DNA of 64,000 nucleotides from Sphingopyxis sp. CCNWLW2 (lineage in GTDB: Bacteria; Pseudomonadota; Alphaproteobacteria; Sphingomonadales; Sphingomonadaceae). The notes under the pieces were generated by a model. The model did no database searches and was not told the DNA's origin. It worked only from the letters and a program-made list of their open reading frames with translations. The stretch covers positions 1 through 64,000 of the forward strand of contig NZ_JBAWKJ010000003.1 in the NCBI RefSeq assembly GCF_037095755.1, in the 5' to 3' direction. A program made the position numbers and the translations under genes. Within the stretch, counting starts at the first letter, position 1. Every line of letters starts with the position of its first letter. This document shows, in pieces, positions 28,334 through 56,753 of the stretch.

Positions 28334-28340
28334 GCCCGGC

Positions 28341-29228
28341 TTACTTTTCGTCGAGCTGCGATTTGTAGAATTGCGCGCCCTGTCCGCCCGCGGCGCGGAT
28401 GCCGCGAAACTCCCAGTCGCCGCCCATCGCGGTGGAAATCACTTCCTCGGACTCGGTCGGCTGGGCGCCGCAATCGTCGCGGATCGGAGTCGGACCATGG
28501 ACGATCCGGTTGCTCAGCTTGCCGAGTCCCTCGACCTCGACCTCGACGAGGTCGCCGGGTTCGACGGGGCGGCTGTTGGCGGGGGTCCCGGACAGCAGGA
28601 CATCGCCCGGCTCCAGCGTGATCGTCCGCGCGATGTCGGCCACCAGGTAATGCATGTCCCATTCCATATTGTCGGTGGTGTCGCTCTGCTTGAGCTCGCC
28701 ATTGACATAGGTGCGGATCCATTTTTCCCGGAAATCCCAGCCGGTCACCAGCCCGGGTCCGATCGGGCAGAGCGTGTCCGATCCCTTGACCCGCAGCATC
28801 GACCCGGAATCGGTGTCGCGAAAATCGTGGAGGCCGTAATCATTGGCGACCGAATAGCCGAGGATATAGTCGCCCGCTTCCGACGGCGCGATGTTGCGGC
28901 AGGTCTTGCCGATCACGATCGCGATCTCGCCTTCGAAATTCAGCCATTTGCAGCGCTCGGGACGGACGATATCGCCGTTGTGGGTGTTGAGCGCGGTGAC
29001 CGGCTTGTGGAAATAAGTCGGCGCCGCGGGCAGCTTGGTAATGAACTCCTCGACGCGGCTGTGATAGTTGAGATGGACGCAGATGATCTTGCTCGGGTTG
29101 CAGGGAGCGAGATGCACCGCCTCGTCGACGCCGATGCTGCGCCCGTCGCGGGTGACCAGGCGATCGCCCTCGCGCGTGGCGAGGATCGGATAGCCATCGA
29201 GGAGGATGCGGCGATATTCGACGGTCAT
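28341..29228 (-). CDS. Fumarylacetoacetate hydrolase (FAH) family protein
   Basis: 295 aa. The metal-binding core contains WLNFEGEIAIVIGK (E-x-E pair), GYSVANDYGLHD and the loop KGSDTLCPIGPGLVTG, followed by DMHYLVADIARTITLEPGDVLLSGTPANSRPVEPGDLVEVEVEG-type features (family hallmark LLSGTPAN). The family covers 5-oxo-1,2,5-tricarboxylate decarboxylase/isomerase (HpaG), acylpyruvate hydrolases and fumarylacetoacetase. Given HpaD-like and HpaE-like genes 1-6 kb away, a role in an extradiol meta-cleavage route is attractive but unproven. It is first gene of the operon with ALDH and ferredoxin, and divergent from the acetoacetate-decarboxylase-like gene across 122 bp containing a GGCC dyad. The C-terminal 40 residues are not typical of the family. 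Confidence 0.9.
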   Translation of the reverse strand: MTVEYRRILLDGYPILATREGDRLVTRDGRSIGVDEAVHLAPCNPSKIICVHLNYHSRVEEFITKLPAAPTYFHKPVTALNTHNGDIVRPERCKWLNFEGEIAIVIGKTCRNIAPSEAGDYILGYSVANDYGLHDFRDTDSGSMLRVKGSDTLCPIGPGLVTGWDFREKWIRTYVNGELKQSDTTDNMEWDMHYLVADIARTITLEPGDVLLSGTPANSRPVEPGDLVEVEVEGLGKLSNRIVHGPTPIRDDCGAQPTESEEVISTAMGGDWEFRGIRAAGGQGAQFYKSQLDEK

Positions 29229-29280
29229 GGGATGCTCCTGAAACTAGGCGCCGATCTAACCCTGCCAGCGACCACCTGGA

Positions 29281-29297
29281 TTGGCCAATTTGGCCAA
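29281..29297. promoter_or_regulatory. GGCC dyad in the FAH / decarboxylase divergent promoter
   Basis: TTGGCCAATTTGGCCAA (two self-complementary TTGGCCAA units one base apart) lies 53 bp from the FAH gene start and 54 bp from the divergent gene start. Operator placement fits control of both units. Related dyads occur at 26478 and 34646. Confidence 0.4.
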
Positions 29298-29350
29298 GTT
29301 GGATTCAGCCGCGCGCGCTAGGCCGGGATAAATTCAGATGAGGAGTGACC

Positions 29351-30531: not shown

Positions 30532-31992
30532 TCAGCGCACGGACCCGTCCAGTATCTGCAAGGTCTTGAGGTCCGAATGGAAATCGAGGGCATAGTCGCC
30601 GCCCTCGCGGCCAAGGCCCGAAATCCCGATGCCGCCGAACGGCGCGGTCAGGTCGCGGACGAGGAAGGTGTTCACCCACACGGTGCCGCCGCGAACCCGG
30701 CGGCCCACGCGCTCGGCCCGCGCCGCATCGCCGGTATAGACCATGGCGGACAGACCATAGGCGGTCGAATTGGCGAGCGCGATCCCTTCGGCCTCGCCGG
30801 AGAAGGTCTGGAAGGTCAGCACCGGGCCGAACACTTCGTTCTGAACGACTTCGCTGTCGTTCGATTTGGGGAGGATCAGCGTCGGCTCGATGAAGTTCAT
30901 GCCCTCCTGCCAGCGCGTCCCGCCGCGAATGACCGTGTCACCCGCCGTGCGTGCGCGGTCGATGAAGCCCATGACGCGATCGACATGCGCGGGGTGGATC
31001 AGCGCAGACATGGTCGTCGCCGGGTCGCGGCTGTCGCCCAGCATATGGGCATCGGCATAAGTATGGAATTTCTCGAGGAACTGATTGGCTATGCTGTCCT
31101 CGACGATGATTCGGGTGCCGGCCATGCAGACCTGGCCGCTGTCGTCATATTGGCCGGCGGCTTTCTTTGCGGCGGCGTCGATATCGGCGTCGGCGAACAC
31201 CAGCAGCGGCGATTTTCCGCCCAGCTCGGCGGTGAACGGCACGATAGTCTCCGCCGCCGCCTTGCCGATCACGCGCGCGGTGGGGACCGATCCGGTGAAG
31301 CTGATCCGCTTGACGCGGGGGTCGCCGACCAGCACCGCGCCGACCTCGCTTCCCAGACCCTGCACGATGTTGAACACGCCGGGCGGAAAGCCGGCCTCAT
31401 CGATCAGGTCGGCGAGCAGCGACGCCGACAGCGGCGACCATTCGGCGGGTTTCAGGATCACCGTGTTGCCCGCCGCCAGCGCCGGCGCGCACTTCCACGT
31501 CGATAGCATGAACGGGGCGTTCCACGGCGTGATGATTACGGCCAGGCCGGCGGGCATCCGGATGACGCGGTTGGCGGTCCCCTTCGACGACCAGACGCGC
31601 TCGACATGCTCCTCGGCAAGGTCGGCATAGCTTCTGAAGTTGAGCGCGGCGCGCGCGATCACACGCAGGCGCAAGCTTTCGTGCAGCATGGCCATGTCCA
31701 GACATTCGACGATCGCGATCGGTTCGATATTCGCCTCGATCAGGTCCGACAGCCGCCGCATGATCGCGCCGCGTTCGGCGGGCGCCATGGCTGCCCAGGC
31801 TGGAAAGGCGGCGGTCGCCGCTTCGACCGCCAGCGCGGCGGTCTCCGCGTCGCCGCGCGATACATCGGCGAGTTTGCGGTCCCAATCGAACGGACAGCGG
31901 GTCTCGAAGGTCGAAGCCGAGGACACGCGCCGGCCGCCGATGAAATGATCGGGCGATACGCTAACGCCCTCGATATTGACGCGATCGCGCAT
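30532..31992 (-). CDS. Aldehyde dehydrogenase, HpaE-like
   Basis: 486 aa. Catalytic Asn158 (TPWNAPF), Glu256 (AELGGKSPLLVF) and Cys289 (DSGQVCMAGTRI) are present. The C-terminal VWVNTFLVRDLTAPFGGIGISGLGREGGDYALDF matches, in order and spacing, the family of 5-carboxymethyl-2-hydroxymuconate semialdehyde dehydrogenase (HpaE): VRDL, PFGG and SGxGREGG. That enzyme oxidises the semialdehyde formed by homoprotocatechuate ring fission, and an HpaD-like dioxygenase lies 2.7 kb away. Alternatively it is a PuuC-like dehydrogenase for gamma-glutamyl aminoaldehyde, since it follows a glutamine-synthetase-like gene by 11 bp. GAGGG precedes the ATG. Third gene of the operon P450 - synthetase - ALDH. Confidence 0.9.
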   Translation of the reverse strand: MRDRVNIEGVSVSPDHFIGGRRVSSASTFETRCPFDWDRKLADVSRGDAETAALAVEAATAAFPAWAAMAPAERGAIMRRLSDLIEANIEPIAIVECLDMAMLHESLRLRVIARAALNFRSYADLAEEHVERVWSSKGTANRVIRMPAGLAVIITPWNAPFMLSTWKCAPALAAGNTVILKPAEWSPLSASLLADLIDEAGFPPGVFNIVQGLGSEVGAVLVGDPRVKRISFTGSVPTARVIGKAAAETIVPFTAELGGKSPLLVFADADIDAAAKKAAGQYDDSGQVCMAGTRIIVEDSIANQFLEKFHTYADAHMLGDSRDPATTMSALIHPAHVDRVMGFIDRARTAGDTVIRGGTRWQEGMNFIEPTLILPKSNDSEVVQNEVFGPVLTFQTFSGEAEGIALANSTAYGLSAMVYTGDAARAERVGRRVRGGTVWVNTFLVRDLTAPFGGIGISGLGREGGDYALDFHSDLKTLQILDGSVR

Positions 31993-32003
31993 GGATTTAA
32001 CCC

Positions 32004-33335
32004 TCAGATATAATGCAGGTAATAGGCGATATGTTCGGCGTCCAGCTTGCCCGCCAGCGTGCGAAGTTCTTCGCGCTTGATCGCGATGAAATTGTCGATC
32101 AGCGCCGCGCCGACGGCCTGTTTCAGCACGGCGTCGGCATCGAGTGCGTCGAGCGCGTCGCCCAGCGCGTGTGGGGTGTGGCGCGCCGTATTGGCCTGGT
32201 CCAGGCCGTCGCTCGTTTCGGGCGGAGGGAGGGGATATTCCTTTGTCACGCCGAGCAACGCGGCTTGCAGGGCCGCGGCCAGCGCGAAGTGCGGGCTCGC
32301 GGCACAATCGGCCAACCGATGTTCGATGCGCGCCGCCGATCCGGTTTCGGCCGAAACGCGGACGGTCACCGCGCGATGATCGATTCCCCAATTTGCCCAA
32401 TAGCCCGACAGGCTGGCCGGCTGGAGCCGGGCGTAGCTGTTGGTCAGCGGCGCCATGATTCCGGCGAGTGCTTCATGATGTTCCAGCAGCCCCGCGATGC
32501 ACCCGGCCATGATGTCGCCCGGGCGCCCGTTCGCCGCGTCGTCCGCAAAGATATTATCGCCCTGCGCGTCCTTGAAGCTGAGATTGAAGTGCAGCCCGCT
32601 GCCGCTCTTGTCGGCAAAGGGTTTTGGCAGGAAAGACAGAAGATAGCCGCGCTTATAGAGGATTTCGCGCGCCATTTGCCGGAATAGAAAAGCGTCGTCG
32701 GCGGCCTTCAGCGCATCGGCATAGCGCAGGGTCAGTTCGAACTGGGGCGCGTCGAATTCGGCGTTGATCGATTCGATCGGAAGGTTGCACTGGTCGGCGC
32801 AGGACCAGATATCGTCCACCAGGCCTGCGGGATCGCTGAACGGACCCGTCCCATAAACGAAGGCGCCCGGCGTGTCGTAAGGGACCCATCCGCCATCGGC
32901 GCCGCGCTGGAAGATATAGGCTTCCATTTCGATGCCGACCATCGGTTCGAGCCCGATCGCGCGCCAGCCTTCGATCGCGCGCTTGAGCGCGGAGCGTCCG
33001 CACAGGGCGAAGGGCGCGCCTTTGAACAGGAGGTCGGCCAGCGCGATCTGGGTATTGTCTTCCCAGGCGGCGCGCAGGTCTTCGGGATCGAAGGCGGCCT
33101 CCATGTCGGGCAGCCCGTCCAGCATGCCGCCGCCGGGGGCGTCCACCATCACCTTGTCATAGGTGACCGCATAGGTGCCGACGCACAGCCGCGCGTGCCC
33201 CTTCGCCGCCTCGCTCATCGGCACATATTTGCCCCGCGCGAGGTTGAGCTGGTCCGCAAACAGGATACGAACGCGCGGCTTCGCGCCGAGCTGCTGGCGC
33301 ATGGCGCCCGATTTGGCCTGCGAAAGCTCGTTCAT
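32004..33335 (-). CDS. Glutamine synthetase-like gamma-glutamylamide ligase
   Basis: 443 aa of the GS catalytic fold, slightly shorter than E. coli PuuA. Visible motifs are MVGIEMEAYIF (metal/glutamate-binding E-x-E), INAEFDAPQFELTL (second Glu pair), DKSGSGLHFNLSF (GS hallmark GSGxHxH, but with Asn in place of the second His) and GIDHRAVTVRVSAETGSAARIEHRLADCAASP (Arg-rich ATP/glutamate region). These features point to the PuuA/IpuC/AtdA1 branch that couples an amine, rather than ammonia, to glutamate; true GlnA has an adenylylation loop not evident here. It lies between a P450 (8 bp) and an ALDH (11 bp). The same P450 plus GS-like pairing is known in mycobacterial morpholine clusters. Amine substrate unknown. 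Confidence 0.88.
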   Translation of the reverse strand: MNELSQAKSGAMRQQLGAKPRVRILFADQLNLARGKYVPMSEAAKGHARLCVGTYAVTYDKVMVDAPGGGMLDGLPDMEAAFDPEDLRAAWEDNTQIALADLLFKGAPFALCGRSALKRAIEGWRAIGLEPMVGIEMEAYIFQRGADGGWVPYDTPGAFVYGTGPFSDPAGLVDDIWSCADQCNLPIESINAEFDAPQFELTLRYADALKAADDAFLFRQMAREILYKRGYLLSFLPKPFADKSGSGLHFNLSFKDAQGDNIFADDAANGRPGDIMAGCIAGLLEHHEALAGIMAPLTNSYARLQPASLSGYWANWGIDHRAVTVRVSAETGSAARIEHRLADCAASPHFALAAALQAALLGVTKEYPLPPPETSDGLDQANTARHTPHALGDALDALDADAVLKQAVGAALIDNFIAIKREELRTLAGKLDAEHIAYYLHYI

Positions 33336-33343
33336 GTCGCCCC

Positions 33344-34612
33344 TCAAATTTGCTCCACCTTCAACGGCAGATGCTTGATCCCGTGGATGAAATTGGACCG
33401 CAGATAGCTGTGCTGCGCGGTCTGTTCGATCCGGCGCACGCGCAGCGCGAGTTCCTGCATCACGATCTTGACCTCCAGCTTGGCGAGCCACATGCCGAGG
33501 CAGATGTGCGGGCCACCCTGTCCGAACGATAGAAAGGGATTGCGCGGCCGCTTGAGGTCAATCGTGTAGGGATCGGGGATCGCGGTCTCGTCGCGGTTGC
33601 CCGACGCGAACCACAGCAGCACCTTGTCGCCCGCCTTCACCGATTTGCCGTGATAGTCGAAGTCGCGGGTCGCGGTACGGCGGAAATGCGTGGTCGGCGA
33701 CGCCCAGCGGATCATCTCGTCGGTGGCCTCGTCCCAATGGGCAAAGTCGCTACGCTGAATTTGGGCCAGCAGCGCGGGATCATTGGCCAGCGCGTGAAGC
33801 GTCGCGGAGAGGCTGTAGCGCGTCGTATCATTGCCCGCCGCGACCAGCAGGCAGAAGAAATTCTTGAACGCGTCGCGCGACATCCGCGTGCCGTGGCTCG
33901 TTTCATCCAGCACCAGGTTGAGGACACCGATCTGCTCGCCCGCGGCCATCCGGTCGAGCAGGCTGTCTGCGTAATCGAACAATTCGATCGCCGAGGGCGA
34001 GCGGAACGGAAGAAAGCGGTATGCGTCGGTATCGACCTTGTCGATCACGAAGTCGGTATAGTCGGGATCGGCGTTCGAGATCAGCGCGTCGCCCTTTTCG
34101 ACCAGCCAGGCGCCATCGGCTTCGGGCACGCCCATGATCTGCGCGAGCATCTGCATCGGCAGTTTGCGGGCGATCGCATCGACGGCATCGAACTCGCCCG
34201 CGCCGAGCGCGACGTCGAGAAGGTCGGTGACGATCTTGCGGATCTGGCCTTCGAACCCGGCGACGGTCGATCGCGAAAAAGCCTTGGCGACCAGAGCCCG
34301 GAAGGCGCGATGTTCGGGCGCGTCGGTTTCCTGGAAGGTCTTGCGGGCTTCGAATTCATCCGCAGTCTGATCCTCCATGCGGATGCCGCGGGCGGACGAC
34401 AGCAGGTCGGGCTGGCGATTGAGATCGAGCAGGTCGGCATGGCGCGTGACGTTCCAGAAACCGCGACTGCCATCGGCCATGTCGATCCAGGCCATCGGAT
34501 CCTCGCGGCGCAGCCGGTCGAAGGTCGCGCACGGCAGGCCTTCGTTGAAGGCGTCCTGCGACGAAAGGTCGACGAACGCATCGGTCGCCCTCGAGAAGGG
34601 ATAATCTACCAT
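33344..34612 (-). CDS. Cytochrome P450 monooxygenase
   Basis: 422 aa. The I-helix motif AAGNDTTRYS, the ExxR-type EMIRWASPTTHFRRT and the heme loop FGQGGPHICLGMWLAKLE with Cys371 are present. It has the AGNDTTR variant common in CYP-type steroid/aromatic hydroxylases of sphingomonads. ATG 34612 has only a weak upstream AGG. It opens the operon P450 - GS-like ligase - ALDH, and is divergent from an HpaD-like dioxygenase across 108 bp. In that setting it may oxidise the amine or its gamma-glutamyl conjugate (taking the place of an amine oxidase), or hydroxylate a ring before extradiol cleavage. Electron donor likely the ferredoxin at 26567. Confidence 0.93.
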   Translation of the reverse strand: MVDYPFSRATDAFVDLSSQDAFNEGLPCATFDRLRREDPMAWIDMADGSRGFWNVTRHADLLDLNRQPDLLSSARGIRMEDQTADEFEARKTFQETDAPEHRAFRALVAKAFSRSTVAGFEGQIRKIVTDLLDVALGAGEFDAVDAIARKLPMQMLAQIMGVPEADGAWLVEKGDALISNADPDYTDFVIDKVDTDAYRFLPFRSPSAIELFDYADSLLDRMAAGEQIGVLNLVLDETSHGTRMSRDAFKNFFCLLVAAGNDTTRYSLSATLHALANDPALLAQIQRSDFAHWDEATDEMIRWASPTTHFRRTATRDFDYHGKSVKAGDKVLLWFASGNRDETAIPDPYTIDLKRPRNPFLSFGQGGPHICLGMWLAKLEVKIVMQELALRVRRIEQTAQHSYLRSNFIHGIKHLPLKVEQI

Positions 34613-34645
34613 GAACAAAAGCCTATGCCGTGGCTTCGGGCGTGA

Positions 34646-34664
34646 CTTGGCCAAAACGGACAAG
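34646..34664. promoter_or_regulatory. GGCC dyad in the P450 / dioxygenase divergent promoter
   Basis: CTTGGCCAAAACGGACAAG has 7-bp arms with one mismatch around AAAAC. It lies 34 bp from the P450 start and 57 bp from the dioxygenase start and resembles the dyads at 26478 and 29281. Confidence 0.38.
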
Positions 34665-34720
34665 CTTGCCCGCGCCAAGTCCGCCATGGTCGTGATCGAA
34701 GGATTTTAAGGAGTTGGACA

Positions 34721-35578
34721 ATGGGTGAGATCGTCGGCGCCGCGCTGCTTGCGCATGCCCCCACCATCATGCTGCCGAAGGAAGTTCGCTATGAACTGAA
34801 CGAAGGCAAGGAGATCAGCCTGGTGCCGGGGCTGCATCGTTTCCGCGCGGAGGTGATGGAGGTGCTTCGACCCGACACGGTCATCCTGTTCGACAGTCAC
34901 TGGTTCACCACGGTCGAATTCTGTGTGACCGCGCACGACCGACGCGCCGGAAAATACACGTCGGACGAGCTGCCCCGCGGGATGAGCCAGATACCCTATG
35001 ATCTGAAGGGAAATCCCGATCTGGCGCGAAGCGTCGCCGCCCATGCGACCGCGTGCGGCGTGCGGACCAGCGCCATCGACGATCCTTATCTGCCGATCCA
35101 TTACCCCACGATCAACATCGCCGATTATCTGCACGGCGGCGAGGAATGGATCAGTGTGGGCTGTGCCCAGACGGGAGAAACGCCTGACTTTCTGAGGGTC
35201 GGCGAGGGGGTTGGCAAGGCGATCGCCGAATCCGACCGGCGCGTGCTGCTGATCGCCAGCGGGTCGATGAGCCATCGTTTCTGGCCGCTTTCCGAACTCG
35301 AGAAACACGAAGCGTCGGATCCGATCCACATTTCCCGACCCGAGGCACGCGAAGCGGATTATGAGCGGCTGGAATGGTTCCACAAGGGTGACCACGCTTC
35401 CGTAATCGATACAATGCCCGAGTTTCTGAAGCATGTCCCCGAGGCGCGCTTCGGTCATTATCTGATGATGGCCGGCGCCTGCGGCGGCCGCAACTGGACA
35501 TGGCCGGGCGTGCGCTATTCCGACTATGAAAATGCGACCGGCACCAGCCAGGTGCATGTCTATTTCGCACGGACCTGA
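34721..35578 (+). CDS. Class III extradiol ring-cleavage dioxygenase, HpaD-like
   Basis: 285 aa of the LigB superfamily. His12 in LLAHAPTIMLP, DSHW at 58-61 and the ASGSMSHRFW segment (about residues 185-195) match the homoprotocatechuate 2,3-dioxygenase (HpcB/HpaD) type in order, including the TSDELPRGMSQIPYDLKGNPDLA stretch after about residue 85 and the C-terminal GTSQVHVYF. The enzyme opens a catechol ring next to the hydroxyls using Fe(II) and O2, giving a semialdehyde. AAGGAG precedes the ATG. It is divergent from the P450 - GS-like - ALDH operon. HpaE-like and FAH-family genes nearby supply plausible following steps, though the substrate need not be homoprotocatechuate. Confidence 0.9.
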   Translation: MGEIVGAALLAHAPTIMLPKEVRYELNEGKEISLVPGLHRFRAEVMEVLRPDTVILFDSHWFTTVEFCVTAHDRRAGKYTSDELPRGMSQIPYDLKGNPDLARSVAAHATACGVRTSAIDDPYLPIHYPTINIADYLHGGEEWISVGCAQTGETPDFLRVGEGVGKAIAESDRRVLLIASGSMSHRFWPLSELEKHEASDPIHISRPEAREADYERLEWFHKGDHASVIDTMPEFLKHVPEARFGHYLMMAGACGGRNWTWPGVRYSDYENATGTSQVHVYFART

Positions 35579-35623
35579 GCCAAAGCCACCATCCTCATCT
35601 CTTCGCGGGGACGACTCGGAATA

Positions 35624-36469
35624 TCAGCCATCGCGTCCGAGAACACAGGTTTCGATCCAGTTGATGATCTCCAGCCGGCGCCTGCGATCGTCGGTGATGT
35701 CGGCATCGACGCCGAGTTGCCAGGCGAGGCCGGCATCGGCCGGGTCTGCGGCCAGCCCGGTCAGCCGCTTCACATAGTCGTCAAGCGACGCATGGTCGGC
35801 GAAGAAGCCCTGTTCGACCATATTGTCGGCATAGAGGGTGTAGAGCTGCACCAGCTGGGCGATGTCGAATTCGGGATGATATTGCACCGCCCAAACGTCC
35901 GATTTGCTGACGGGGATGATCGCTGCCTGGACAAGGCTGTGCTCGTTCGAGGCCAGCAAGGTCGCGCGATCGGGCAGCCGCGTGACCTCGTCATAATGGA
36001 TGCAGGGCGCATCGAATACGCCTCGCTTGCCAGCGAACATCGGATGGCCGCGCCCATCGTCGTTGAGCAGGATCTTGCGGGCAAAGCCGACCTCGCGCCC
36101 CTTGGCATTATATTCGACAAGCCCACCGGCCGCCATGACGGCGATCTGCAATCCCCAGCAACTGCCGAAAATCGGCAGCCCCGCCGCACCCGCCTCTGCT
36201 ACCAGCGCAATCTGGTTGGTGACGGCGAACTCCGGATCATAAGCGTGCAGCGACGACCCGGTGATGACCATGCCGTCATAGTCCAAAAGCGCGCGCCCTC
36301 CCGGTATCGCCCAATCTTCGTCCGCGGCGTTGACCACGTCCAGTTCCAGATCCGGAAAATGCGCCCGGATCGCGAGCGCGTAAATTTCCGAGGACGAACG
36401 GACGCCGAGTTCGGCTCCCGATTTTCGCTTGGAGGCGGTGTTGCCTTCCATCAGCAAGAGGCTTGGCAT
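35624..36469 (-). CDS. Class I glutamine amidotransferase-like hydrolase
   Basis: 281 aa. The catalytic triad is evident: nucleophile Cys104 in FGSCWGLQIAV, and His198/Glu200 in VQYHPEFD. There is no attached synthase domain, so it hydrolyses a gamma-glutamyl amide or delivers ammonia to a partner. ATG 36469 is used; an in-frame TTG lies 15 bp upstream. It follows an AraC regulator by 11 bp. With the GS-like ligase at 32004 it forms the pair seen in gamma-glutamylation pathways: PuuA/PuuD, and AtdA1/AtdA2 of aniline degradation, where the second protein is exactly a class I amidotransferase-like protein. A role in removing the glutamyl group is inferred. Confidence 0.88.
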   Translation of the reverse strand: MPSLLLMEGNTASKRKSGAELGVRSSSEIYALAIRAHFPDLELDVVNAADEDWAIPGGRALLDYDGMVITGSSLHAYDPEFAVTNQIALVAEAGAAGLPIFGSCWGLQIAVMAAGGLVEYNAKGREVGFARKILLNDDGRGHPMFAGKRGVFDAPCIHYDEVTRLPDRATLLASNEHSLVQAAIIPVSKSDVWAVQYHPEFDIAQLVQLYTLYADNMVEQGFFADHASLDDYVKRLTGLAADPADAGLAWQLGVDADITDDRRRRLEIINWIETCVLGRDG

Positions 36470-36480
36470 CGATATTGATC

Positions 36481-37491
36481 TCAATGTTTCGTGGCGGAAA
36501 GGGCGGCGCGGAATTTCTGGGGCGGCGTGCCCGCCCAGCGAGTGAAGGCCCGGGTGAAGGTCGAATGTTCGGCATAGCCCAACCGCAAGGCGATTTCGGC
36601 AATGGAGGCGCCGGGCCTGACCCGGAATTCCAGAACCGCCTGCCGCATCTTGCAGTCGTCGAGCAGGTGCTGAAACGATGTGGCCTCGTCCGCCAGACGC
36701 CGGCGCATCGTGCGGCTCGACATCCCGATTTCACGTGCCAGATGATCCTGGTTGATGTCGCCGTCTGACAGACGGGAGAAAATAATGCCGGCGAGCCTTT
36801 CGCGTGCCGGGCGTCGTCGGCGGCGCTCCGCGAGGCTGGACGAAAGCCGCTTGAGATCGCAGGGGCGGTCGAATTCGGGCATCGGGCGATCGAGCATCGC
36901 GACGGGCAGCCTGATGCTGTTGGCTTCGCATTCGAACTCGAGCTGACCTTGCCCCAGCTTCAACCCGGTGTCGCTTTTCCGGCATTCAAAGCCGAGTTCG
37001 ACGAATTCCATCGCCTCAGGAACCGCCATCTTCACGATCTTGGTGATGATGCCCAGGCTGAACAGCGCATCTTGGTGGCGCGGCCAGATCGACGGGTCGA
37101 GAATCCGGTACGATATGGTCGCCATTTCCGAAGTCGTTTCGAGGTTCAGCCGCGAGGCATCCTGAAGCAGTTCAAAATTATCGGTCAGGCGCCGTAGCCC
37201 TCCGCCCAGCGTTTTCGCGCTCAACACGGCCTCGCCCACTTCGCCCAGTTCGGCGAGATCATATTCCTCACCGATCAGCCAGCTGGCGCTCGCATCGGAC
37301 GAATGGTCGCCGACGAATTCGGCCATGCGGGTAAAATTGGTCAACGGGATCGTATCGCGGGCGCAATGCGCGGGGGCAGGGTCGATGCCCGCGGCAAGCA
37401 ACGCGTCGGGTGCATCGACACCGAAATCATGGATACGATCCATCCAGCCGCTCAGGACCGTCGTGCGTACTTCCGCCGTGCTCATAACCAT
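36481..37491 (-). CDS. AraC-family transcriptional regulator
   Basis: 336 aa. The N-terminal two-thirds is the Arabinose_bd-type effector domain (MDRIHDFGVDAPDALLAAGI onward) and the C-terminus (about 235-330) is the AraC double helix-turn-helix: HLAREIGMSSRTMRRRLADE and then IAEIALRLGYAEHSTFTRAF with the following WAGTPPQKFR. This layout (OruR/ArgR-like) is common for regulators of amine and aromatic catabolism. It is the first gene before the amidotransferase-like gene and is divergent from the MFS transporter - dehydrogenase - aminotransferase operon across 209 bp, so it probably controls both. Two starts are 6 bp apart (37491, 37485), and GGGGGA serves either. Confidence 0.93.
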   Translation of the reverse strand: MVMSTAEVRTTVLSGWMDRIHDFGVDAPDALLAAGIDPAPAHCARDTIPLTNFTRMAEFVGDHSSDASASWLIGEEYDLAELGEVGEAVLSAKTLGGGLRRLTDNFELLQDASRLNLETTSEMATISYRILDPSIWPRHQDALFSLGIITKIVKMAVPEAMEFVELGFECRKSDTGLKLGQGQLEFECEANSIRLPVAMLDRPMPEFDRPCDLKRLSSSLAERRRRRPARERLAGIIFSRLSDGDINQDHLAREIGMSSRTMRRRLADEATSFQHLLDDCKMRQAVLEFRVRPGASIAEIALRLGYAEHSTFTRAFTRWAGTPPQKFRAALSATKH

Positions 37492-37700
37492 ATCCCCCGA
37501 TATGCTCGCCGAATCATTTTATGTTCGACCTTCCACTGGCTATCGATCGAAACATGCCGAAGTATTGACCAATAGGGTCGCAAAATTGATCATAAAGATC
37601 ATCGGTTCCGCGAAGCTCGTCCGAGATTGTCCGAAGCTGCCAAGTGCCGGATGAGGAACCCACTTAACTGCCGATCGGGCCGGCGGGAGGGTCGCAGTCA

Positions 37701-38858
37701 ATGTCCTTTGAAATCGACGTCAACAGCAAGGCCTCTGTCCTGAGCGCGGTTTCGCTTGGCACGCTGGGGGTGCTTTCGTTCATCGTCCAGCCGGCGCTGG
37801 TCCAGGGGTTTGTGACGCATCTCGGGCTGACCGAGCCGCAGGCCGTCAATCTAGCCGGTCTGGAAATGCTGGGCGTGGCGATCGCGACGATCCTGCTGAC
37901 GCTGCCGATCAACCCCCTGAACTGGCGCCAGTCGCTGGCGGCGGGGCTGGCGCTGGCGATTATCGGCAACCTGGCCTCGGCGGCGTTGGTGGGAAGCGAG
38001 CAGCTCTGGATCGCGCGGCTGATCGCCGGCTTGGGGCACGGCGCGATCATCTCGCTCAGCTTTACCTTTGTCGGCCTGACCGCCCGGGTGGACCGCAATG
38101 TCGCCTGGTATCTTGTCGCGCTGCTCACCTATGGCGCGGCGGGATTGTGGCTGATGCCGGGCATCCTCGACAGCATCGGCATGGCGGGATTGTTCCTTGC
38201 CTTTGCGGTGCTGCTCACCGCAGGCTTTGCCACCCTGCGCCATATCCCCGCGTCCAGCGCCGCCCGTGTCGAGCCGAGCCCAACCGCGCGCCAGCTGGGC
38301 CTGGGGCTTCTGGCGGTCGGCCTCGCCGGGGTTCTAGCCTATAATATGGCGCAGGGGATCGCCTGGGCGATCCTGTTCCTGGTCGGCGTCGACGCCGGGA
38401 TTTCGGAAGGCGGGGTGGCCCAGGTGCTGTTCGTCTCGCAGCTGTTCGCCATCGTCGGCGCGCTCTGTTCGGTCTATCTGGCCGGACGTTTCGGCCGTCG
38501 GGCACCGATCGCGGTCGGCATCCTCGCCGGCGCCGTCTGCATTTCGCTGTTGCTGGACCGCCCTTCGTTTGCCGTCTTCCTCGTCGCGGTCTGTGGTTTC
38601 AATCTCCTCTGGAATTTCGTCCTACCGTTCATTCTGGGCGCGATCGGCGATTTTGACGAGAAGGGCCGGATGATGGGGCTGGCCATCGCGATGCAGATGA
38701 TCGGCCTTGGTGGCGGACCTTTGCTGGCGGCGCACCTGATCGGCGGCGGAAGCTATCGCCCCGCCGAACTCGCCTGCATCGGCTTTTTCCTGATCAGCTA
38801 TCTTCTTTTGACCATACCGATGCTGCGCCATCGGGCCTTGCTTGCGGAGCGCGCTTGA
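37701..38858 (+). CDS. MFS transporter
   Basis: 385 aa with about 12 hydrophobic helices and few charged residues. The segment GLGHGAIISLSF and the loop RFGRRAPIAVGIL (between TM8 and TM9) fit the major facilitator fold; the canonical TM2-3 motif is weak. It is likely an inner-membrane importer of the substrate of the adjacent amine pathway, or an exporter. The gene is first in the operon MFS - ALDH - aminotransferase; its stop is directly followed by the dehydrogenase start (1 bp apart). It is divergent from the AraC regulator. Substrate direction is not deducible. Confidence 0.88.
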   Translation: MSFEIDVNSKASVLSAVSLGTLGVLSFIVQPALVQGFVTHLGLTEPQAVNLAGLEMLGVAIATILLTLPINPLNWRQSLAAGLALAIIGNLASAALVGSEQLWIARLIAGLGHGAIISLSFTFVGLTARVDRNVAWYLVALLTYGAAGLWLMPGILDSIGMAGLFLAFAVLLTAGFATLRHIPASSAARVEPSPTARQLGLGLLAVGLAGVLAYNMAQGIAWAILFLVGVDAGISEGGVAQVLFVSQLFAIVGALCSVYLAGRFGRRAPIAVGILAGAVCISLLLDRPSFAVFLVAVCGFNLLWNFVLPFILGAIGDFDEKGRMMGLAIAMQMIGLGGGPLLAAHLIGGGSYRPAELACIGFFLISYLLLTIPMLRHRALLAERA

Positions 38859-38859
38859 A

Positions 38860-40293
38860 ATGCCGGATACGCTTTGGAAACTGATGCAGCGCTTTCTGGA
38901 CGACGCGCACGGCATGGCGGTCTTCAACCCGGCGACGGGGGAGAGGCTGGCGGCGGTGCGTAGCTATTCGATCGATGAGATCGATGCGATCGTCGCGCGG
39001 GCGGAGCGGGCGCGGAGGGATTGGGCGGCCTTGACCGCCAAGGTGCGCGCCGAACGGCTGCGCGACTGGTTCGTGCAGATCGTCGCCCATCGCGACCTGC
39101 TCGCGGCGCTTTGCACCGCCGAGTGCGGAAAGCCGCTTGCCGAGTCCCTCGGCGAGGTTGCCTATGCCGCCAGCTTCATCGAATGGTTCGCCGAAGAGGG
39201 CAAGCGCGCCTACGGCGAAACGATCCCCACCTTCGCCGCGGGCAAGGCGGTGATGACAGTCAAGGAACCGGTCGGGACCTGCACGGCGATCACGCCGTGG
39301 AATTTCCCCCTGGCGATGATCACCCGCAAGGTCGGGCCGGCGCTCGCGGCGGGATGCGCGATGATCGTGAAGCCCGCCGAAGCGACGCCGCTATCCGCAC
39401 TCGCGCTCGAAGCGCTGGCGGCGCAGGCGCGGATCCCGCCGGACATCTTTCGCGTGGTGCCGTCGTCGGCACCTGCCGAAGTCGGCAAGCTCTTCTGCTC
39501 GCACCCGCTGATCCGCAAGATCAGCTTCACCGGATCGACGCCTGTCGGCAAGCAGCTGCTCGCCCAGGCGGCCGGCACGGTGAAGCGCGTCAGCATGGAA
39601 CTGGGCGGCAACGCCCCATTCATCGTCTTCGACGACGCCGACCTCGACGCCGCGGTTGACGGCCTGATGCTGTCCAAGTTCCGCAACGCCGGGCAGACAT
39701 GCGTGTGCGCCAATCGCGTGCTGGTCCAGGACGCGGTGCATGATGCGTTCGTCGCAAAGCTGGTCGACCGGGTCACCAAGCTGAAGGTCGGCAACGGGGC
39801 GGAGAAAGGCGTCGAGATCGGCCCGCTGATCGACGACCGCGCGATGGCGAAAGTTACGGCGCTCGCGGCGGACGCAGTGTCGGTGGGGGCCGTCGTCGCG
39901 TGTGGCGGCGAACGCCATGATGCGGGCGCGCGTTTCTTCGCACCGACCGTGCTGACCGGCGTCACGCAGGACATGCCGATCGCACAGACGGAAATTTTCG
40001 GCCCGATCGCGCCCGTCATCCGTTTTTCCGACGAAGCGGAAGCGATCCGGCTGGCGAACGATACGCCGTTCGGCCTCGCCGCCTATTTCTACGCGCGCGA
40101 CGTTGGCCGCGTCTGGCGCGTCACGAACGCGCTCGAATATGGCATGGTCGCGGCCAATGAGGGGGCACTGTCCACTGAAATCGCGCCGTTTGGCGGCGTG
40201 AAGGAATCCGGCCTCGGCCGCGAAGGATCGCGCCACGGCCTCGATGAATATCTCGAACTCAAATATGCATTGATTGGAGGATTATCCGCATGA
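38860..40293 (+). CDS. Aldehyde dehydrogenase, succinate-semialdehyde dehydrogenase type
   Basis: 477 aa. Catalytic Asn148 (TPWNFPLAMI), Glu247 (MELGGNAPFIVF) and Cys281 (NAGQTCVCANRVLV) are present. NAGQTCVCANR and ELGGNAPFIVFDDADLD are signature sequences of the GabD subfamily of succinate-semialdehyde dehydrogenase, including the second cysteine (Cys283) that can form a redox-sensitive disulphide. The expected reaction is semialdehyde to dicarboxylate with NADP+. It overlaps the aminotransferase start by 4 bp (ATGA); together they would convert GABA or a homologous omega-amino acid to succinate or a related acid. It is placed 1 bp after the transporter gene. Glutarate-semialdehyde is an alternative substrate. 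Confidence 0.93.
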   Translation: MPDTLWKLMQRFLDDAHGMAVFNPATGERLAAVRSYSIDEIDAIVARAERARRDWAALTAKVRAERLRDWFVQIVAHRDLLAALCTAECGKPLAESLGEVAYAASFIEWFAEEGKRAYGETIPTFAAGKAVMTVKEPVGTCTAITPWNFPLAMITRKVGPALAAGCAMIVKPAEATPLSALALEALAAQARIPPDIFRVVPSSAPAEVGKLFCSHPLIRKISFTGSTPVGKQLLAQAAGTVKRVSMELGGNAPFIVFDDADLDAAVDGLMLSKFRNAGQTCVCANRVLVQDAVHDAFVAKLVDRVTKLKVGNGAEKGVEIGPLIDDRAMAKVTALAADAVSVGAVVACGGERHDAGARFFAPTVLTGVTQDMPIAQTEIFGPIAPVIRFSDEAEAIRLANDTPFGLAAYFYARDVGRVWRVTNALEYGMVAANEGALSTEIAPFGGVKESGLGREGSRHGLDEYLELKYALIGGLSA

Positions 40294-41588
40294 CCACCAA
40301 CGCGGAACTGTGGAATCGCCGCGAAGCCGCCGTGCCGCGCGGCGTAACGTCGATGCACCAGCGGTTTTTCGCGCGCGGCGCCAATGCCGAGGCTTTCGAC
40401 GCGGAGGGCAATCGCTACATCGATCTCGCGACCGGCATCGCCGTGTGCAACACCGGCCATGGCGATCCGCGCATCATCGCGGCGGTCAAACGCCAGCTCG
40501 ACGCCTTTTCGCACTGCTCGTTTCAGGTCACACCATATGAAAACTACATCGCGCTCGCCGAACAGCTGAACGCGATCGCGCCGATCGCGGGCGACGCCAA
40601 GACGATCTTTTTCACGACCGGGGCCGAGGCGCTGGAAAATGCGGTGAAGATCGCGCGCGCCCACACCGGACGGCGGGGCATTGTCACGTTCCAGGGCGGC
40701 TATCACGGCCGCACCCTCCTGACGCTGGCGATGACAGGGAAAGTCTTGCCCTATAAGGCGAAGTTCGGCCCGATGCCGACCGACGTGTTCCACACCCGTT
40801 TCCCGATCCCCTATCACAGCTTTTCGGACGAACAGGCGATCGAAGGGCTCCACAACCTGTTCGCATCGTCGATCGAGCCATCCGCCGTCGCGGCCATCGT
40901 GCTCGAACCGGTGCTTGGCGAGGGCGGTTTCTACACGGCGTCCTACGCCTTTTTCAAAGCGCTGCGCGCGCTCTGCGACGCGCACGGCATCCTTTTGATC
41001 GCCGATGAAGTCCAGACCGGTTTTGCGCGCACCGGGCGGATGTTCGCGATGGACTGGGTGCGCGAGGCCAATGGCGTGACCCCCGACATGATGACGGTAG
41101 CCAAGGCGATGGCGGGCGGTTTTCCGGTCTCGGGCGTCATTGGCCGCGCCGATGTCATGGACGCGCCCGACCCCGGCGGATTGGGCGGGACCTATGGCGG
41201 GTCGCCGCTGGGCTGCGCCGCCGGCCTCGAAGTGCTGAAGATCATCGAGAGCGACAATCTGTGCGACCGCGCGGTGATGATCGGAAACCGCATCAAGGAA
41301 CGGCTGCGCGCGATCGCGCAGAGCGGCCTGGACATGATCGGCGACGTTCGCGGTCCCGGCGCGATGATCGCGATGGAGCTGGTGCAGGACCGCGATCCGG
41401 CCCGGCCCGATCCGGACATGGCGAAAGCGGTGGTGCAGGAAGGCGCGAGGGAAGGGCTGCTGATGCTGTCCTGCGGCCTGCGCGGTAATGTCGTCCGCTT
41501 CCTGCCCGCGCTGTCCGCGAGCGACGCGATTATCGACGAAGCGCTGGGCAAGCTCGAAATCCTATTGCGCCGCCTGTCGCCGGATTGA
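40290..41588 (+). CDS. Class III aminotransferase, 4-aminobutyrate type
   Basis: 432 aa. PLP lysine Lys272 in TVAKAMAGGFPVSG, the IADEVQTGFARTGRMFA motif (Asp239, Gln242), FFTTGAEALENAVKIAR and GGYHGRT are all in place. IADEVQTGF and the preceding EPVLGEGG are typical of GABA/5-aminovalerate aminotransferases (GabT, PuuE). It moves the amino group of an omega-amino acid to 2-oxoglutarate, giving a semialdehyde for the coupled dehydrogenase (4-bp overlap). It ends the operon MFS - dehydrogenase - aminotransferase; the TonB receptor that follows 89 bp later may be co-transcribed. The acceptor and exact amine substrate are inferred from family only. Confidence 0.93.
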   Translation: MTTNAELWNRREAAVPRGVTSMHQRFFARGANAEAFDAEGNRYIDLATGIAVCNTGHGDPRIIAAVKRQLDAFSHCSFQVTPYENYIALAEQLNAIAPIAGDAKTIFFTTGAEALENAVKIARAHTGRRGIVTFQGGYHGRTLLTLAMTGKVLPYKAKFGPMPTDVFHTRFPIPYHSFSDEQAIEGLHNLFASSIEPSAVAAIVLEPVLGEGGFYTASYAFFKALRALCDAHGILLIADEVQTGFARTGRMFAMDWVREANGVTPDMMTVAKAMAGGFPVSGVIGRADVMDAPDPGGLGGTYGGSPLGCAAGLEVLKIIESDNLCDRAVMIGNRIKERLRAIAQSGLDMIGDVRGPGAMIAMELVQDRDPARPDPDMAKAVVQEGAREGLLMLSCGLRGNVVRFLPALSASDAIIDEALGKLEILLRRLSPD

Positions 41589-41677: not shown

Positions 41678-44047
41678 ATGCGCGCTGCCCTTGCACTGAC
41701 CGTTTCGACAGCGGCGATGGCTTTGCCCACCCCCACGCAGGCGCAGGACGCGCCGGTGCCAGCCGAACAAACATCGGGTGAGGAAAGCGGCGGTTTCGGC
41801 GACATCGTCGTCACCGCGCAAAAGCGCAGCGAGAATCTGCAGAAGGTACCGATCTCGATTTCGGCCTATTCGGGCGAGCAGCTCGAAGCGCTCGGCATCT
41901 CGGACACCACCCAGATAACGCAGCAGATCCCCGGCCTTCGGCTCAACGCCTGGTCGCCGAACATCACAATATTTTCGCTGCGCGGCGTATCGCAGAACAA
42001 CTTTACCGACAATCTCGAAGCGCCGGTCGCGGTCTATGTCGACAACGCCTATATGGGATCGATCAACGGCGTCTCGGGCCAGTTGTTCGATACTGAGCGG
42101 GTAGAGGTCCTGCGCGGGCCGCAGGGAACGCTCTTTGGCCGCAATGCCACGGGCGGGTTGATCCATTATCTCAGCCGCGATGCCAGCGAGAGCGAACTCA
42201 ACGGCTATGCCGAGGCGAGCTATGGCCGGTTCAACGACTGGTCGCTCGAGGGCGCGGTCGGCGGCGCGCTGACCGAGACGATCCGGTTTCGCGCCGCAGG
42301 CCGCGTGAACAAGGCCGACGGCTATGTGAAATCGCGCGACACCGATGCCGCTGCCGGTCTGGTCGGCAGCGGACAGGATCTGGGCGGCAAGGACGGCTGG
42401 GCCATTCGCGGCACGATCCAGGCCGATATCACGCCCGATCTGAAGCTCAACCTGTGGGCGAAACATTCGGAGGACAATGACGTCGCGACCGGCGGCTATG
42501 TTTTCGACAATTGCGACTTCCAGGCCAACGGCTATTGCAGCGTCGACGACGCCGGGCTGTCCAACGGCACGGGCGGCGTGATCAACGGCGTCACCGGCGA
42601 CCCGGCGTCCCCCTTCGAACATTTCGGTGAGCGTCCCGGCTATCTGAACCGCAAGGCGACGATCCTCCAGGCTGACTGGACGTGGGACCTGGGCGGCGTC
42701 GAGCTGACCTCGATCACCAACGCGGTCAATTTGCGCAAAACCTATGGCGAGGATGGCGATGCCACGCCCCTGCTGGTGATCAACTTCGATACCGGCATCA
42801 AATACAAGCAGTTCAGCCAGGAGCTGCGCCTGTCGGGCGAGAGCGATCGCTTCAAGTGGCAGACCGGTCTCTATTATCTCGACATGGATCTCGACGGCTT
42901 CATCCGACTGCGCGGCGCGCCCGTCTTCGGCACCGCGATCGGGATCAATGGCACCGCGGTCGATCCGCTGGTTGCACAGTCCTACCTGCTCGAATCGCGA
43001 AACTGGTCGATCTTCGGACAGGGCGAATATGAACTCTCCGACCAGCTCAGCATCACGCTGGGCGCGCGCTATTCGAAGGACAAGAAGTCGATCGACTATC
43101 GCGCCGTCCTCAGTGACCCGACGGTCGGCCCCGATGCGACCTTCTCCTCGACACCCGCGTTCGAACTCGCCGTTCCGGGCGTCAGCCGGATCAACTATGG
43201 TGATTGGGCCGCGCGCGCCGCGCTCAACTACAAGCCGAACGACGATACGATCATCTTCGCGTCGTGGAACCGCGGCATCAAGGGCGGAAACTGGTCGCTG
43301 GGATCGGACGTCGTCGCGCAGAATTTCAAACATCGCCCCGAAACGCTGAACAGCTTCGAACTGGGCTTCAAGACTGCGCTCGCCGATCGCGCGCTGCGGA
43401 TCAACGGGACGCTCTTCCACTATATCTATGACGATTATCAGGCGTTCGCGGTGGTCGGCGGTGTGCCGCAGGTCGGCAATTCGGATGCGCGGTCAACTGG
43501 CGCCGAACTCGAACTCTTCTGGTCGCCTTCGGATCGCTTCGATGCGATCCTCGGCGCGACGTGGCAGAAATCGAAGGTCGACCAGGTCGATGGCCCCGGC
43601 GAGCAATTCGGTCCCGAATTCTTCCCCGGCGCGCCCGATGCGCAATATTGCACCAATCAGGGCGGCTTCTTCTTCTGCGACTTCCCGCAGGACACGATCA
43701 CCGACGCGAAGTTTCCCAACGCCCCACGCTTCAGCCTGAATTATATGCTGCGCTACAATATCGACGTCGGCACGGGCAATCTCGCGGCGCAGGTCGACGG
43801 TGCTTGGTATGGCAAGCAATATCTCGAGGTGACCAATGGCCTCTCGTCGTTGCAGCGGGCCTATAATGTCAGCAATTTTTCGCTGACCTATGATCATGAA
43901 CCCAGCGGATTGAGCGTGTCGGGCTGGGTCAAGAATCTGTTCGATCAGGCATATCGCGCCTATACGCTCAACCTGGGCATATTGGGCACGACCTCCTTCT
44001 TCGCGCCGCCGCGAACCTATGGCGCGACGGTTAGATATTCGTTCTGA
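41678..44047 (+). CDS. TonB-dependent outer-membrane receptor
   Basis: 789 aa. Signal peptide about residues 1-22 (TPTQAQ), TonB box DIVVTA at 42-47 followed by QKRSENLQKVPISISAYSG. The plug contains FSLRGVSQNN and RVEVLRGPQGTLFGRNATGG; the barrel ends YGATVRYSF. GGAGGAG lies 10 nt upstream of the ATG. Receptors with this signature in sphingomonads import aromatic or terpenoid catabolic substrates as well as siderophores. Position after the transporter - dehydrogenase - aminotransferase operon suggests it may feed the amine pathway. It is convergent with AraC, with a strong hairpin in between. Ligand unknown. Confidence 0.93.
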   Translation: MRAALALTVSTAAMALPTPTQAQDAPVPAEQTSGEESGGFGDIVVTAQKRSENLQKVPISISAYSGEQLEALGISDTTQITQQIPGLRLNAWSPNITIFSLRGVSQNNFTDNLEAPVAVYVDNAYMGSINGVSGQLFDTERVEVLRGPQGTLFGRNATGGLIHYLSRDASESELNGYAEASYGRFNDWSLEGAVGGALTETIRFRAAGRVNKADGYVKSRDTDAAAGLVGSGQDLGGKDGWAIRGTIQADITPDLKLNLWAKHSEDNDVATGGYVFDNCDFQANGYCSVDDAGLSNGTGGVINGVTGDPASPFEHFGERPGYLNRKATILQADWTWDLGGVELTSITNAVNLRKTYGEDGDATPLLVINFDTGIKYKQFSQELRLSGESDRFKWQTGLYYLDMDLDGFIRLRGAPVFGTAIGINGTAVDPLVAQSYLLESRNWSIFGQGEYELSDQLSITLGARYSKDKKSIDYRAVLSDPTVGPDATFSSTPAFELAVPGVSRINYGDWAARAALNYKPNDDTIIFASWNRGIKGGNWSLGSDVVAQNFKHRPETLNSFELGFKTALADRALRINGTLFHYIYDDYQAFAVVGGVPQVGNSDARSTGAELELFWSPSDRFDAILGATWQKSKVDQVDGPGEQFGPEFFPGAPDAQYCTNQGGFFFCDFPQDTITDAKFPNAPRFSLNYMLRYNIDVGTGNLAAQVDGAWYGKQYLEVTNGLSSLQRAYNVSNFSLTYDHEPSGLSVSGWVKNLFDQAYRAYTLNLGILGTTSFFAPPRTYGATVRYSF

Positions 44048-48901: not shown

Positions 48902-48921
48902 ATTCTCGTCGGAGACAAATT

Positions 48922-50694: not shown

Positions 50695-50719
50695 TAACAG
50701 CTATCCCCGGGAGAATGCC

Positions 50720-56655: not shown

Positions 56656-56753
56656 GGGCGGCAATGGGGCGCCGACCGGGGCGCTGATTTTAAAAGTCGC
56701 GGCTGCGCAGGGCTTCATCTTTTCCCTCCCAGGTGACGGCGCGGGAGGTTCTG

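Follow-up and report, generated by a model that had tools for sequence, protein, structure and literature searches.

The first 64,000 nucleotides of contig NZ_JBAWKJ010000003.1 (hereafter the window, at the start of contig C3 in our numbering) from the 4.62-Mb genome of Sphingopyxis sp. CCNWLW2 contain a gene cluster for which we propose a role in breaking down an arylethylamine, tyramine being the most likely, through a gamma-glutamylated variant of homoprotocatechuate meta-cleavage. We assign this reading a probability of about 55%; the substrate, each catalytic step and the order of the steps are inferred from gene content, conservation, co-occurrence, retained catalytic residues and formula balance. 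An initial annotation of the region had suggested gamma-glutamyl amine catabolism with an aromatic amine among the possible substrates, and that general idea is supported here. The genes it named are all present, in the operon structure and at the positions it gave (Table 1), and they are real as judged by family membership and conserved orthologs.

In the proposed route, a glutamine synthetase (GS)-like ligase would convert tyramine to gamma-glutamyl-tyramine and a cytochrome P450 would hydroxylate the ring of the conjugate to give gamma-glutamyl-dopamine. A LigB-family extradiol dioxygenase would cut this catechol between C2 and C3, an aldehyde dehydrogenase (ALDH_A) would oxidise the ring-cleavage semialdehyde, a FAH-family protein would decarboxylate the product and an ADC-family protein would hydrate and split it into pyruvate and gamma-glutamyl-4-aminobutanal. 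A second aldehyde dehydrogenase (ALDH_B) would then form the gamma-glutamyl conjugate of gamma-aminobutyrate (GABA), from which a class I amidotransferase-like hydrolase would free GABA and glutamate, with GABA passing to succinate via GABA transaminase and succinate-semialdehyde dehydrogenase (SSADH). The computed elemental formulas of the first seven steps balance to gamma-glutamyl-4-aminobutanal and gamma-glutamyl-GABA.

The enzymes of the homoprotocatechuate (hpa) pathway are as given in PMC12718150. By our own carbon mapping, the side chain in that pathway ends as succinic semialdehyde. With CH2-CH2-NH-glutamyl in place of CH2-COOH, the same steps would end at gamma-glutamyl-4-aminobutanal. 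This aldehyde is an intermediate of the putrescine Puu route, with which the proposed pathway would also share gamma-glutamyl-GABA, GABA transaminase and SSADH; the difference is that no PuuB amine oxidase is found among the 46 called genes of the window, and the aldehyde would come instead from ring cleavage and aldol splitting. We consider it an evenly balanced proposition that the complete route takes an aromatic biogenic amine to GABA with the glutamyl cap kept through hydroxylation, ring cleavage, decarboxylation and aldol splitting, joins the Puu pathway at gamma-glutamyl-4-aminobutanal, and has a counterpart in other alphaproteobacteria, where a second version of the upper module (GS-like ligase, P450 and hydrolase) feeds non-homologous hpa enzymes.

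Support for the ring-cleavage half comes from three unrelated families, LigB, ALDH_A and FAH, each of which is nearest to a homoprotocatechuate-pathway enzyme among solved structures. The best relative of LigB is HpaD (3,4-dihydroxyphenylacetate 2,3-dioxygenase, 8iq8; 8e-23 by sequence), which is also its first Foldseek match; with a mean predicted local distance difference test score (pLDDT) of 65 for the model, the fold match only backs the sequence result. ALDH_A is nearest to 2d4e, an HpaE-type 5-carboxymethyl-2-hydroxymuconate semialdehyde dehydrogenase, and FAH to HpaG (1gtt, 1.4e-58). The scores fall under the family cut-offs in all three cases: 127 bits for LigB against TIGR02298 (HpaD, cut-off 316), 476 bits for ALDH_A against TIGR02299 (HpaE, cut-off 638) and 195 bits for FAH against TIGR02303 (HpaG, cut-off 276). 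For LigB and ALDH_A, a score well below the cut-off is what a changed side chain, gamma-glutamyl-aminoethyl rather than carboxymethyl, would allow. The genome's sole match to TIGR02298 is LigB itself, and no protein passes that cut-off. The putative catalytic residues are retained, with LigB His12, His60, His185 and Glu241 and ALDH_A Cys289 and Glu256 invariant in 36-row alignments (here and below, except for the ten GS positions and the 17-row alignment, invariance refers to the rows with a letter at that position, at least 80% of rows).

The window also differs from hpa systems, which it resembles in its HpaD-, HpaE- and HpaG-like enzymes and SSADH, in having one FAH-family gene and an ADC-family protein in place of an HpaI-type aldolase. 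No PF03328 aldolase is present among the 46 genes found by our own gene caller, all of which were covered by the Pfam scan (the remaining genome was not searched for HpaH or HpaI). The best solved relative of the ADC protein is MppR (4jm3, 1.2e-53), followed by 4zbo, whose chain is named acetoacetate decarboxylase, and Lys128 and Lys129 are invariant in a 13-row alignment. Portions of PMC7820114 present MppR as an aldolase that couples pyruvate with an aldehyde, and suggest the aldolase step for MppR-like proteins induced during phenol meta-cleavage in Saccharolobus. That pathway is a parallel for an ADC-related aldolase, but it involves no glutamylation in the portions cited and the aldolase assignment is a suggestion there as well.

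Are the ring-cleavage genes functionally tied to the upper module or simply its neighbors? Ortholog searches covered 396 sampled Sphingomonadales genomes, and gene-content counts were taken from fetched stretches around the clusters. GS-like orthologs with at least 54% identity occur in 13 of the 396 (the next-best match having 36%), an independent search with the ADC protein returned 13 at 71% or more, and LigB orthologs of at least 57% identity were found in 13, besides matches of 25-33% in four others. The three sets are the same 13 genomes, the window's included, and the association is therefore beyond chance. All six core genes (GS, P450, LigB, ALDH_A, FAH and ADC) are found together in 13/13 cluster-bearing Sphingomonadales genomes and in 4/4 clusters of another alphaproteobacterial genus, g120, and LigB, FAH and ADC accompany P450-GS in all 17 LigB-type clusters tabulated. 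We rejected LigB as a chance neighbor on these grounds. The dioxygenase is a core part of the cluster, and the ADC, FAH and ALDH_B genes (26903-30154), which lie to the left of the interval originally annotated, belong to the same system. As to whether homologous clusters keep the partners of the GS-like gene, a check proposed in the initial annotation, the outcome supports that annotation for the P450, which is always retained in these two groups and adjoins the GS-like gene across the related clusters compared; the amidotransferase-like hydrolase is kept in part, in 12/13 Sphingomonadales and 0/4 g120 stretches.

A wider scan of one genome per species (84,980 species) yielded 31 loci, of which 21 carry the title Novosphingobium (15) or Sphingomonadaceae bacterium (6). 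Novosphingobium hassiacum DSM 14552 is among the strains with the cluster (L043/L107). The locus comparison left out L072, L076, L085, L088 and L092 (duplicate contigs) and L091 and L100 (cut off), and L074 and L079, in both of which a GS-like gene was found, stand outside every count.

The co-occurrence also bears on the possibility that the upper module serves a pathway of the Ipu type for short alkylamines and that the meta-cleavage genes act on another substrate. Indeed, the GS-like ligase, the P450 and the amidotransferase-type hydrolase are present together here, by family, as in the isopropylamine (Ipu) pathway described in parts of PMC6776027, where the P450 acts on the gamma-glutamyl conjugate with a ferredoxin system (the hydrolase being postulated for Arthrobacter by analogy with IpuF). 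To this extent the combination, first noted as unrecognised, is a known one; its link to a homoprotocatechuate-like meta-cleavage set is still unrecognised. The Ipu pathway has no aromatic ring or ring cleavage in the parts cited, whereas the module of the window is tied to LigB, ALDH_A, FAH, ADC and GABA catabolism. With LigB and ADC in the same 13/396 genomes as GS, and a decarboxylase gene standing between ADC and P450 within one operon in L064, L065 and L067, we dropped the Ipu-only reading, the most improbable of those considered.

The GS-like protein keeps nine tested residues of the genome's own GlnA in 42/42 orthologs, residues that we take to be ATP, glutamate and metal contacts. The Glu of the GlnA motif PGFEAPV, presumably the Glu flap (Glu327), is replaced in all 42, by Leu in 39 and by Met in three. 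On this assignment of the flap, the protein has the pattern expected of an organic-amine ligase (GoaS), with the flap Glu lost and the nine other positions kept. In parts of PMC11335346, organic-amine ligases are reported to have lost the Glu flap (printed as Glu357) as well as Asp50'. The original distinction between the GS-like protein and housekeeping glutamine synthetase is thus borne out, and the sequence of the former supports a role as a glutamate ligase distinct from the latter. The P450 has an invariant Cys371 (42-row alignment) and is better read as a ring hydroxylase than as a substitute for an amine oxidase.

The latter role was central to the initial annotation, in which a Puu-like pathway for a (possibly cyclic) amine had the P450 standing in for the amine oxidase and ALDH_A acting as PuuC, with LigB unrelated. 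The gene families fit this scheme superficially, and the best NCBIfam match of the GS-like protein is gamma-glutamylputrescine synthetase (NF045547; 206 bits, below the cut-off of 650). It is also correct that no amine-oxidase family has a Pfam match in any of the 46 called window genes (shorter or uncalled genes and the remaining genome were not searched). However, the scheme does not account for LigB, FAH and ADC in 17/17 LigB-type clusters, and ALDH_A is HpaE-like and directly adjoins LigB in the g120 operons, so that neither the surrogate oxidase nor the PuuC assignment was retained. Both ALDH_A (349.5 bits) and ALDH_B (291.5 bits) are under the PuuC cut-off of 850, though a similar role may still apply. 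A separate gene with a strong PF07722 match (C2:383155, 198 bits) lies near GS-like genes at C2:390646 and C2:394647, again speaking against the Puu-like scheme for the window, which we regard as very improbable. Together these three genes form a separate locus, G000:C2:383155-395960, a putative Puu locus in the same genome.

A side chain ending as gamma-glutamyl-4-aminobutanal predicts a need for GABA transaminase. The aminotransferase of the window exceeds the GABA transaminase cut-off and the neighboring semialdehyde dehydrogenase that of SSADH (Table 1), supporting these assignments and refining the generic ones made at first. GABA transaminase is over cut-off in 12 of the 13 cluster-bearing Sphingomonadales genomes and in all four g120 genomes; six genomes, among them that of the window, have no copy at E 1e-100 other than the one in the cluster. 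Among 366 sampled Sphingomonadales genomes, 43 have the enzyme over cut-off, 11 of which carry the cluster, and it is detected in 32 of about 353-355 genomes without the cluster. Fisher p values for the association, uncorrected for relatedness, are 1e-9 to 2e-11, the range reflecting the treatment of two cluster genomes missing from the 366-genome listing. At least four cluster-free genomes of genus g58 (G046, G049, G079 and G090) also have the enzyme. SSADH (at least 57% identity) and GABA transaminase (at least 62%) are inside the fetched stretch in 6 of the 13, and in a seventh, G076, whose GS-like match has one stop within its range, GABA transaminase lies just past it.

The principal alternative reverses the order of events. 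Here the hydrolase would free dopamine, the class III aminotransferase and ALDH_B would convert it to 3,4-dihydroxyphenylacetate, and LigB, ALDH_A, FAH and ADC would form an ordinary homoprotocatechuate pathway to succinic semialdehyde. This tag-off order also employs every gene, and related clusters without LigB lend it weight. In L069 the P450-GS module lies beside a type I HpaD (389 bits, cut-off 321) and an HpaE that passes its cut-off, while HpaH- and HpaI-like genes narrowly miss theirs, and in L063 it lies beside HpaD (418 bits, cut-off 321), HpaH and HpaB, all over cut-offs; both modules include an amidotransferase gene. An omega-aminotransferase is found near the module in L069 and L068 (679 and 725 bits, subfamily cut-off 575). 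The aminotransferase of the window, however, is over the cut-off for GABA transaminase, unlike those of L068 and L069, and LigB and ALDH_A are far under the HpaD and HpaE cut-offs. The hpa enzymes of L069 and L063 are non-homologous to the ring-cleavage set of the window.

The hydrolase itself is informative on this point. Its Cys104, His198 and Glu200 are invariant in 28-row and 17-row alignments, its model has a pLDDT of 91 with gamma-glutamyl peptidase 1 as the first Foldseek match, and its PF07722 score of 37.6 bits is over the gathering score of 20.5 but far short of that of the protein at C2:383155, so that its match to PuuD is equivocal. Its identity to the six hydrolases of clusters without LigB is only 24-31% (or 38-39% over 56 residues), against at least 33% among those six. 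No hydrolase gene is found in the fetched stretches of the four g120 operons and of two Novosphingobium clusters (G179 and EMRT-2), which counts against the tag-off order. A strong PF07722 protein is encoded elsewhere in G179 and all four g120 genomes (167-226 bits), while the five genomes without a strong PF07722 protein (G178, G355, G158, G004 and G018) all keep the cluster hydrolase; the remaining seven have both. This distribution and the GABA transaminase association favor ring cleavage with the tag on, short of proof, and we regard the tag-off order as unlikely, if a serious contender.

Two lines of evidence point to a hydroxyphenethylamine as substrate. First, in three of the four g120 operons (L064, L065 and L067), ADC and P450 flank a decarboxylase gene. 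The L064 protein (PF00282) has DOPA decarboxylase 7xin as a match at 2.7e-201 and shares 69% identity with its L065 and L067 counterparts. L068 encodes a 40% relative, again nearest 7xin, in a run with aminotransferase, amidotransferase, P450 and GS genes. Second, the outgroup clusters L069 and L063 couple the P450-GS module to the true hpa enzymes described above, and in midpoint-rooted trees the g120 clusters, which are of the LigB type, group with L010, L041 and L069, which have no LigB, and not with the Sphingomonadales (support 0.97 for P450 and 1.0 for GS). It therefore seems that one upper module feeds two unrelated homoprotocatechuate-type enzyme sets, which in turn points to hydroxyphenethylamine.

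Several observations weigh against tyramine degradation with the tag retained. (i) The decarboxylase was not found in L066, the fourth g120 operon, and nine of the 13 Sphingomonadales genomes, including that of the window, have no relative of the L064 protein at E 1e-20. Since the nearest decarboxylase is one for DOPA, the P450 would be unneeded for catechol formation if the product is dopamine. (ii) Removal of the tag before ring cleavage looks likely for L069 and L068, judging from the omega-aminotransferase near by, and the true hpa genes beside the module in L069 and L063 fit the same order there. L062 and L063 carry an HpaB-type hydroxylase, and the P450 in these clusters may perform another hydroxylation, for example of phenethylamine to tyramine. 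(iii) No ferredoxin and reductase for the P450 are found in the window cluster; L064 has both by Pfam, with similar-sized genes in the same place in the other three g120 operons, and L051 also has the pair beside its relative of the cluster. (iv) ALDH_B reaches no cut-off, for aminoaldehyde dehydrogenases or otherwise, among the best 25 of its 41 NCBIfam matches, and an ortholog at 60% identity or more is present in 10 of the 13 cluster-bearing Sphingomonadales genomes (the window's included) and missing from three clusters. (v) In G317, one of the genomes with the cluster, no match for GABA transaminase reaches E 1e-100. (vi) Two of the supports given above are weakened. The FAH proteins of L069 and L063 score 165 and 162 bits, also under the HpaG cut-off, and they stand beside true hpa genes, so that the low score of the window protein is uninformative; the background count of GABA transaminase, for which four candidates were scored per genome, may be an undercount.

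It also counts against a homoprotocatechuate-type substrate that the second-best relatives of LigB are 2-aminophenol dioxygenases (2-aminophenol 1,6-dioxygenase), as those of ALDH_A are 2-aminomuconate semialdehyde dehydrogenases. These would suit an aniline-type substrate, with glutamylation and P450 action giving 2-aminophenol or catechol for LigB cleavage by an Amn- or Atd-like route, and the pairing of GS-like and amidotransferase-like proteins recalls AtdA1/A2. Both the aniline (AtdA1/A2) and the 1-naphthylamine (NpaA1) systems use an organic-amine ligase with an altered ammonium site, but they pair it with a dioxygenase and act on arylamines, whereas the window has a P450, proposed to act on an arylalkylamine, and no Rieske dioxygenase among its 46 called genes. 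Moreover, the window has one LigB gene where the listed aminophenol enzymes are two-subunit, and the linked aromatic-amino-acid decarboxylase and GABA transaminase would be left without a role. We consider the aniline or aminophenol route quite improbable and did not retain it.

Table 1. Features of the proposed arylethylamine cluster and its flanks (window coordinates)
Coordinates	Strand	Gene product	Proposed role	Family match
26903..28333	-	ALDH_B	gamma-glutamyl-4-aminobutanal dehydrogenase, PuuC-like role (proposed)	PF00171 4e-148
28341..29228	-	FAH-family protein	HpaG-like decarboxylase/isomerase after ring cleavage (proposed)	PF01557
29345..30154	+	ADC-family protein	Schiff-base hydratase-aldolase releasing pyruvate (proposed)	PF06314 1.5e-57
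30532..31992	-	ALDH_A	HpaE-like dehydrogenase of ring-cleavage semialdehyde (proposed)	TIGR02299 HpaE, best match
32004..33335	-	GS-like ligase	gamma-glutamyl-arylethylamine (tyramine) synthetase (proposed)	PF00120
33344..34612	-	cytochrome P450	ring hydroxylase on gamma-glutamyl conjugate (proposed)	PF00067
34721..35578	+	LigB-family extradiol dioxygenase	HpaD-like ring-cleaving enzyme (proposed)	PF02900
35624..36469	-	class I amidotransferase-like protein	gamma-glutamyl-GABA hydrolase (proposed)	PF00117, PF07722
36481..37491	-	AraC-family regulator, QhpR type		NF049968 302.5 bits, cut-off 250
37701..38858	+	MFS transporter		PF07690
38860..40293	+	succinate-semialdehyde dehydrogenase (SSADH)		TIGR01780 652.5 bits, cut-off 646.35
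40290..41588	+	GABA transaminase (class III aminotransferase)		TIGR00700 536.5 bits, cut-off 506.65
41678..44047	+	TonB-dependent receptor adjoining GABA transaminase	possible uptake protein	PF00593, PF07715

The arrangement of the genes is compact. ALDH_A, GS-like and P450 genes are separated by gaps of 11 and 8 bp on the minus strand and therefore form an operon, and the MFS, SSADH and aminotransferase genes follow one another almost without gaps on the plus strand, with a 4-bp overlap between SSADH and aminotransferase. The AraC regulator adjoins the amidotransferase gene in many clusters; QhpR is named after the operon of quinohemoprotein amine dehydrogenase. A second AraC gene (44082-45098) scores 238 bits for QhpR, just under cut-off, and several other clusters have a relative close to their ADC-FAH pair. 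Within the fetched stretches, the best match to the TonB-dependent receptor at 41678..44047 is 60-72% identical in G355, G317 and G158; in the remaining nine of the 12 other Sphingomonadales genomes it is 26-33% identical and possibly a paralog.

Another TonB receptor is followed by two Amidohydro_3 proteins at 46553-52429, with N-termini that appear leader-like by eye. All three have matches (44-74%) close to the cluster in G178, G355 and G158, and the Amidohydro_3 proteins might release amines from N-acyl amides. Farther downstream, a protein with an HpaB/AbfD fold (56733-58274) was considered as a second hydroxylase and dropped; it is 23% identical to the HpaB of L063, and at E 1e-10 no match was found among 117 loci except those at 23% in L062 and L063. 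Among plasmid records it matches proteins of Fusobacterium/Cetobacterium (54-57%) and of Bradyrhizobium/Sphingomonas (69-78%), and genes for AMP-ligase, enoyl-CoA hydratase and CO-dehydrogenase-like subunits are found in the same stretch. It is perhaps 4-hydroxybutyryl-CoA dehydratase-like.

The related loci have further features of their own. In Ruegeria TM1040 (L010:5094-13287), the amidotransferase-P450-GS module adjoins the paaABCD genes for phenylacetyl-CoA epoxidase, and Tritonibacter mobilis (L041) has same-sized genes at this position. A UPF0261 (Tm-1-like) protein is encoded near P450-GS in no-LigB clusters (L062:10468-11706 and L010:21391-22623), and L064:12360-15398 encodes a 1012-aa protein that combines APH kinase, M23 peptidase and class III aminotransferase domains in a fusion. 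GS-like genes 39-41% identical to that of the window each directly follow the gene for a 353-aa protein in two actinobacterial metagenome-assembled genomes (MAGs) and one unclassified bacterial MAG (L095:8209-10544, L096:2604-4886 and L098:6385-8720). Two copies of this protein were scanned against Pfam without a significant match (none for L095, a weak M29 match at E 0.007 for L098). To us the 353-aa protein looks NicX-like, and the pair is possibly another glutamylation and ring-cleavage system.

The upper half of the proposed pathway is of a known kind, that of Ipu, and what appears new is its linkage to a homoprotocatechuate-like meta-cleavage set. No catabolic pathway for gamma-glutamyl-tyramine or -dopamine, no catabolic gamma-glutamylation of phenethylamine and no ring cleavage of such a conjugate appear among the matches listed for the open-licence part of PubMed Central. 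Known bacterial breakdown of tyramine and dopamine begins with an amine oxidase and yields reactive aldehydes and peroxide, both of which a glutamyl-capped route, if confirmed, would avoid. The same pathway would provide substrates for orphan P450s, GS-like ligases and LigB dioxygenases that are annotated only generically; in Novosphingobium sp. EMRT-2, for example, the GS-like gene is annotated as 'glutamine synthetase family protein' and the dioxygenase as 'catechol 1,2-dioxygenase'. It would also place an ADC-family protein in catabolism and offer a hint of how freshwater sphingomonads might use biogenic amines.

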